This document shows, piece after piece, positions 1,256-29,489 of a stretch of DNA of 64,000 nt (position 1 is its first letter; every line of letters starts with the position of its first letter). This DNA is from an uncultured Prevotellaceae bacterium (GTDB lineage Bacteria > Bacteroidota > Bacteroidia > Bacteroidales > Bacteroidaceae), in the NCBI GenBank assembly GCA_900316315.1, contig ONCK01000006.1:62001-126000 (forward strand), written 5' to 3'. Both the position numbers and the translations under genes were made by a program. Below the pieces are notes generated by a model. That model made no database searches. It saw only the letters and a list, made by a program, of their open reading frames with translations, and had not been told where the DNA came from.

Positions 1256-1342
1256 GCTACGATGTGTTTGGTACAAAGTGGTAGGTTGTTTAAGTAGAAA
1301 GGCAGTTAATAGTACGTCTGAGAAGCTGTCGAGAGCGAAATC

Positions 1343-1370
1343 TTAACGAAATCTTCACACAAACTTTACT
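1343..1370 (+). promoter_or_regulatory. Pho-box-like direct repeats
   Basis: Three hexamers TTAACG (1343), TTCACA (1354) and TTTACT (1365) lie exactly 11 bases apart. A longer repeat, CGAAATCTT at 1336 and 1347, shares that period. This resembles the PhoP box of Bacillus (TTAACA-like hexamers separated by about 5 bases) and the 11-bp periodicity of PHO boxes in general. The third hexamer overlaps the -33 region of the promoter of a phosphate transporter gene. Binding by a PhoB/PhoP-type regulator is inference. Confidence 0.5.
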
Positions 1371-1398
1371 ATATCGTAATACGGCCTGTTTACTTTTG
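1365..1398 (+). promoter_or_regulatory. promoter of the PiT phosphate transporter
   Basis: The -7 element TACTTTTG (1391-1398) fits TAnnTTTG. A weak -33 (TTTA, 1365-1368) lies 22 bases upstream, where the Pho-box-like repeats overlap it. A weak -33 replaced by activator sites would fit a regulated promoter. The ATG follows at 1427. Confidence 0.6.
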
Positions 1399-28696: not shown

Positions 28697-29489
28697 TGCG
28701 TCCGTCCGCTTTTTGCCTTTGGCAATTTTGTGTAAGTCCGACTATGGGTGACGCATAAATACTCCATACAGGGATGACCACGATGCCAAATGGGCATGAT
28801 GTCTCGGCTATCGGAAGGGCAGGCTTTATGTAGACAAATCTCAGGCATCCAGAGGCTATCGGCACGGATGGAGTGCCGGTTGGTAGAACGGGTACGCGTG
28901 ACAAGGGCGGATGTGACTTAGATAAGATTACTTGAAGTTTAAGTTGTATGGCGATTTGTAGCTGATTGAAAAACAGCTTGCTATGAATGTGGCAAATCTC
29001 ACTGCGCTTGTCCGACACTCAGAGGGCTGTGCTCGCGCTGCCGCCTTGTTGCCTTTTGCTTTAAGCCTCAGCGGGTGGGACAATTGAGGACTTAGTAGAG
29101 TGTAAGAGGAACGGGCTTGTCGATTCGCCATTTGTAAAAGACGTGACTTTTGGCATTTGGTCACCTTTCAGATGGTTTCAAATATGTTTCAATCTTGTAT
29201 GGGAAGCCTTTACTATGATGGTTGAGGTACGGTGATTGTACAGATAGAACTGAAAAGTATTTTGTCATGCCTATAGCGTGTAGCAACCATCTGGATGAAC
29301 GGCCTCGGCTCGGCTTCTTTGGTGTTTATTGTGCTGCTTGGGCGGCGGTTCGTCGTATGTCCCCTTTGACGATATTATTTGAAAACATCTTACACAAGGA
29401 GAAGCATCGCCCGTGTCCGGTTATCGTCTCTGAAGCTCCCTCAAAGCGCATGACACTCTGTTGTCTTTTAGCTAGACCAGAATGTTTTT
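28697..29489. other. gene-free stretch upstream of the PCMD operon
   Basis: No supported gene. From about 29,330 onward the sequence aligns with the left flanks of repeat copies A and C, including a 38-codon stretch of equal length in copies A and B that ends FYI-stop. The 91-codon open frame at 29222-29497 lacks a promoter and family resemblance. Confidence 0.45.

Follow-up and report, generated by a model that had tools for sequence, protein, structure and literature searches.

In Bacillus subtilis, PhoP boxes are built from TT(A/T/C)ACA units that recur with an 11-bp period. In Escherichia coli K-12, the pstS promoter carries TGTCAT-like units 49, 38, 27 and 16 bp before TATTTT, which, from its position, we take to be the -10 hexamer. 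The phoA and phoB promoters of the same organism carry units 27 and 16 bp before their -10 hexamers. PhoB binds head-to-tail on direct repeats, and its transactivation loop meets the sigma factor (PMC3973317, PMC4415409, PMC4832192).

Within the Bacteroidales, a point of reference is Bacteroides fragilis, whose PhoB binds a 512-bp fragment of the pstC promoter in vitro (PMC3547664, Wakimoto et al. 2013). Expression of BF3715, a phosphate/sulphate permease of this species, drops 52-fold in a phoB mutant under low phosphate, and the same array experiment found no low-phosphate induction of BF3715 in the wild type (PMC3547664). The Pho box is treated there in general terms, and the main text gives neither a sequence nor a consensus for it (PMC3547664). 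The literature that we searched, to which most subscription journals do not belong, likewise yielded no Bacteroidetes Pho-box sequence.

The window analyzed here is a stretch of 64,000 nucleotides from the genome of an uncultured Prevotellaceae bacterium. Within it, an array of four direct repeats precedes a gene for a PiT-family phosphate transporter. Judged by sequence comparison, this array is very probably a four-half-site PHO operator through which PhoB would activate the transporter gene. It is like the E. coli PHO box in its 7-bp units, its 11-bp direct repeats, the family of its regulator and its association with phosphate genes. The distances of the window promoter are also those of E. 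coli pstS (49/38/27/16), counted to the -10 hexamer in E. coli and to the -7 element in the window, and the fourth unit occupies the same 16-bp place as the proximal half-sites of phoA, phoB and pstS. However, the E. coli unit is CTGTCAT, whereas that of Bacteroidales is TGTAACA, and CTTAAC-like in the window. Moreover, the E. coli promoter element is TATAAT rather than TAnnTTTG, and the marked target in this genome is a PiT transporter and not Pst.

The TTAACA-like core of the B. subtilis PhoP box appears nearly the same as that of the window array and has the same period, although the regulator there is the Gram-positive PhoP. Also close is the PhoRB system of B. fragilis, a species different from that of the window genome, in which a Bacteroides-type PhoB controls pst and a PiT-type permease (PMC3547664). 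Judged by its annotation, BF3715 would correspond to the PiT gene of the window.

The array and promoter of the PiT gene

The initial annotation of this DNA described three hexamers with exact 11-base spacing, and these are present in the window sequence: TTAACG at 1343-1348, TTCACA at 1354-1359 and TTTACT at 1365-1370. The 9-base repeat CGAAATCTT that it reported with the same period is found in two copies, and the PiT gene and its promoter were also correctly recognized (Table 1). A fourth in-phase unit, CGTAATA, had been overlooked. The array therefore has four units in steps of 11 bp, not three, and is best read as the 7-bp units CTTAACG / CTTCACA / CTTTACT / CGTAATA. The third hexamer had been said to overlap a weak -33 box. 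Unit 3 does lie at the -33 position, but no separate TTTG is found there. It is also the least conserved of the four units among relatives. Unit 4 lies downstream of the -33 position and ahead of the -7 element, of which the TTTG is invariant in 44 aligned relatives.

Table 1. Positions of the repeat units, promoter element and transporter gene in the window
Feature	Position	Strand	Basis and remarks
9-base repeat CGAAATCTT, copy 1	1336..1344	+	sequence
PHO unit 1, CTTAACG	1342..1348	+	49 bp 5' of -7 element; sequence and aligned register in relatives
9-base repeat CGAAATCTT, copy 2	1347..1355	+	sequence; overlaps units 1 and 2
PHO unit 2, CTTCACA	1353..1359	+	38 bp 5' of -7 element; sequence and register in relatives
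PHO unit 3, CTTTACT	1364..1370	+	27 bp 5' of -7 element, at -33 position; sequence and relatives
PHO unit 4, CGTAATA	1375..1381	+	16 bp 5' of -7 element; sequence and relatives
-7 promoter element TACTTTTG	1391..1398	+	sequence; Bacteroidota TAnnTTTG consensus
PiT-family inorganic phosphate transporter, 744 aa	1427..3661	+	PF01384, 102.4 bits (cut-off 33.7), E 3.4e-29

Three TTNAC sequences at 11-bp intervals occur once in the 64-kb window when both strands are considered; when one strand was Markov-shuffled 60 times, the average count was 0.0. A position matrix was made from the PiT promoters of other genomes, with the window left out. With this matrix, the window site at 1339-1400 scores 24.7 bits, and the runner-up among ~128,000 positions on both strands scores 4.6 bits. 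When only the four units are scored, the array reaches 12.2, whereas moving it by two units lowers the score to 6.4 and no other place exceeds 4.4; the matrix rows were chosen by using the register, which biases the matrix toward that register, and the 11-bp spacing statistic given below is free of this bias.

Such a pattern might in principle be a functionless, chance periodicity of AT-rich DNA, and weaker 11-bp periodic stretches do occur in other AT-rich intergenic regions. One example is TTGAAACATATTTGAAACCATCTGAAAGG (29163-29194, minus strand), which comprises three PHO-like units with an 11-bp period and has no in-phase -7 box and no clear gene behind it. However, chance fits poorly with the shuffled sequences and with the gap between the two highest matrix scores, and the phase of the array relative to the -7 box is common to dozens of genomes. 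We give this explanation hardly any credence, and the conserved register in relatives brings it close to being excluded.

Conservation of the unit and its register in Bacteroidales

PiT promoters were compared in 80 relatives, nearly all of them Bacteroidales. Layout-matching PHO units with the consensus TGTAACA-N4 are present in 53 of these, and the other 27 lack such a site. The consensus combines TGTAACA-N4 units with TAnnTTTG, and it was from these 53 sites that the matrix used above was made. Upstream of PiT, TGTAACA-like heptamers (at most one mismatch) form 48 pairs with 11-bp spacing, compared with 0.12 expected from shuffled sequence. Further peaks in heptamer spacing occur at 22 and 33 bp, with almost none between. 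Relative to the T of the -7 element, the units begin where they do in the window: 49 bp (31 cases), 38 bp (30), 27 bp (9) and 16 bp (28) before it. In three relatives, PiT adjoins phoB or is near it (G124, L154/L215; G139, L169/L217; G150, L158/L219).

The PHO unit is not specific to PiT in Bacteroidales. In 119 Bacteroidales genomes, the exact pattern TGTAACA-N4-TGTAACA has 23 matches, and the reversed pattern has 5. By gene reading and family searches, phosphate genes lie behind 10 of the 23 exact pairs. These are five PiT genes and one each of ppk, a Na/Pi cotransporter gene, pstS (identified by TIGR00975), phoB (NF053854) and a porin-like gene. The last of these is unnamed by Pfam and NCBIfam and was placed by position, because pstC follows 2.7 kb further on. 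Exact TGTAACA pairs are also present upstream of two TonB-dependent receptor genes (L103 and L115) of another genome, G104, which are candidates for phosphate-regulated outer-membrane uptake.

Strong unit pairs are found within 400 bp before phoB in 13 of 30 cases; the reverse strand gives 3 and shuffling leaves 1. For pst loci, in which strong pairs were defined by a score of at least 12 bits, 11 of 30 pstC loci have such a pair, compared with 8 on the other strand, only a weak excess, and 1 after shuffling. Where a strong pair precedes pst or phoB, its first unit mostly lies 27, 38, 49 or 60 bp from the TTTG of the -7 box. These distances all equal 5 modulo 11 and apply to about two thirds of 21 pst and phoB promoters, and the search that found the pairs had no phase rule built in. 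The initial reading of the sites as PHO-box-like agrees with these comparisons: the same unit stands in the same -7 register before PiT across Bacteroidales, and elsewhere in the order it also precedes pst, ppk, Na/Pi cotransporter and phoB genes.

It is well supported that the array is an ordinary kind of regulatory site in a group for which we found no published consensus. The comparison provides a concrete PhoB operator consensus and spacing rule for Bacteroidales, in which TGTAACA-like units lie 16 + 11n bp before TAnnTTTG. In B. fragilis, PhoB is known to govern phosphate genes and abscess survival, and the rule could separate direct from indirect targets among the 585 PhoB-dependent genes of this species.

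Regulators and phosphate genes of the source genome

The genome assembly consists of 31 contigs and is 99% complete. It encodes three regulators of the OmpR family (Trans_reg_C). One of these, L002, is a Bacteroides-type PhoB (NF053854, 272.7 bits; cut-off 270), and the adjoining gene encodes a PhoR kinase (NF053855, 613.9 bits; cut-off 500). The second, L001, falls marginally under the cut-off for RprY (369.4 versus 370), and the third, L003, reaches none of the displayed NCBIfam cut-offs. The window locus combines several of the features by which a PHO box is recognized: 11-bp direct repeats, a promoter phase that places them over the -33 position, a phosphate gene, and PhoB and PhoR in the same genome.

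The array could instead be the operator of another OmpR-family response regulator, either the RprY-like L001 or L003. The use of tandem direct repeats is shared throughout the OmpR family (PMC4832192), other members also use a spacing of 10-11 bp, and the genome has three Trans_reg_C regulators in all. However, across Bacteroidales the unit is associated with phosphate genes, including phoB itself, and it is PhoB that binds the pstC promoter in B. fragilis (PMC3547664). We therefore consider control by another regulator to be quite improbable.

If the array is a PHO operator, PhoR would phosphorylate PhoB when phosphate is low. PhoB dimers would then line up head-to-tail along the 11-bp repeats, so that two dimers occupy the four units. 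The promoter-proximal units cover the -33 position, which would place PhoB beside the sigma factor, where it could replace the weak -33 contact and allow PiT transcription from TACTTTTG. Because the E. coli distances recur in the window promoter and PhoB touches sigma, activation by PhoB in place of the -33 contact is most likely how this promoter would work. The shared distances also suggest that the place at which PhoB meets the sigma factor may be common to E. coli and Bacteroidales, although their promoter consensus sequences differ. It is from these comparisons that we infer PhoB binding, activation and a phosphate response at this promoter.

The expectation that the repeat would recur before other phosphate genes is borne out across Bacteroidales, but in its own genome only this PiT gene was found to carry it, largely because those other genes were not detected. 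Family searches of the genome gave no match for PhoU, PstC, a Na/Pi cotransporter or Ppk, and no array is present at phoBR. A second PiT gene of the same genome (L171, G000:C28:16123-18318), 46% identical, was checked for an array and has none, as was also the case for the PstS-like and porin regions. The PstS-like protein was rejected as a Pst component; its gene resides in an ExbB/ExbD-type cluster and not in a Pst operon. Support for the probable PHO-box assignment thus comes from comparison across genomes, and not from a shared regulon within this one. Recurrence before several phosphate genes of one genome is customary for a PHO box, though no strict part of its definition. In this species, the main role of PhoB may be to control phosphate import through the array-bearing PiT gene, and the second PiT gene would supply basal uptake.

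When the genome was searched with a sequence model of the array, the hits were the window site and a slightly higher-scoring promoter of a copA-like P-type ATPase gene, and no other phosphate gene among the 150 of 697 first-look candidates that were scored. The copA-like promoter (L084:1484-1545; G000:C13:154980) carries an 11-bp direct repeat of a different unit, ATTGCAA-N4-ATTGCAA, in phase with its own -7 box, CTAACTTTG. Some other regulator of the OmpR family may bind this repeat. An exact unit pair elsewhere in the genome (L093) is in a non-phosphate context and was taken as chance.

Unit sequence and PhoB residue 201

The PhoB of this genome has His where E. coli PhoB has Arg201, which is reported to form a bond with a guanine in each of the two half-sites (PMC3973317). 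Among the PhoB proteins of relatives, this residue is His in L015 and L023, Asn in L005 and mostly Arg otherwise. The lineage also has the unit CTTAAC in place of TGTAAC, and CTTAAC-type units are common to relatives L004, L005, L015 and L149, whose PiT proteins are 56-58% identical.

These departures from the consensus might mean that the array is a decaying relic, an ancestral PHO operator that has drifted in this lineage and that PhoB no longer uses. Single units agree with TGTAACA at just 3-5 of 7 bases, the PhoB protein has diverged (272.7 bits, compared with up to 371 elsewhere in the order) and has lost Arg201, and pst, phoU and ppk were not detected in the genome. However, spacing and phase are exact in all four units, three of which have CTT-AC in common. 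Because the CTTAAC-type units recur in relatives and the phase is exact, a consensus that has shifted explains the units better than random decay does, and we regard a relic as very improbable.

G stands at unit position 2 in 4/12 cases in genomes with His or Asn and in 34/57 cases in genomes with Arg, counts that come from few, related genomes and include one row (L007) that is out of register. L004 and L149 have CTTAAC units despite Arg. A link between residue 201 and the G of the unit is therefore suggestive only.

A broader evolutionary scenario is tentative, and we consider it rather unlikely as a whole. The Pho regulon would have shrunk approximately to PiT, and PhoB Arg201 would have become His or Asn together with the change from TGTAAC to CTTAAC. 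The 49/38/27/16 geometry would have been kept since the split from Proteobacteria, despite the differing promoter elements.

A variation in spacing is seen upstream of PiT in three relatives (L150, L151 and L156), in which a third TGTAACA-like unit follows the second after ~9 bp and not 11.
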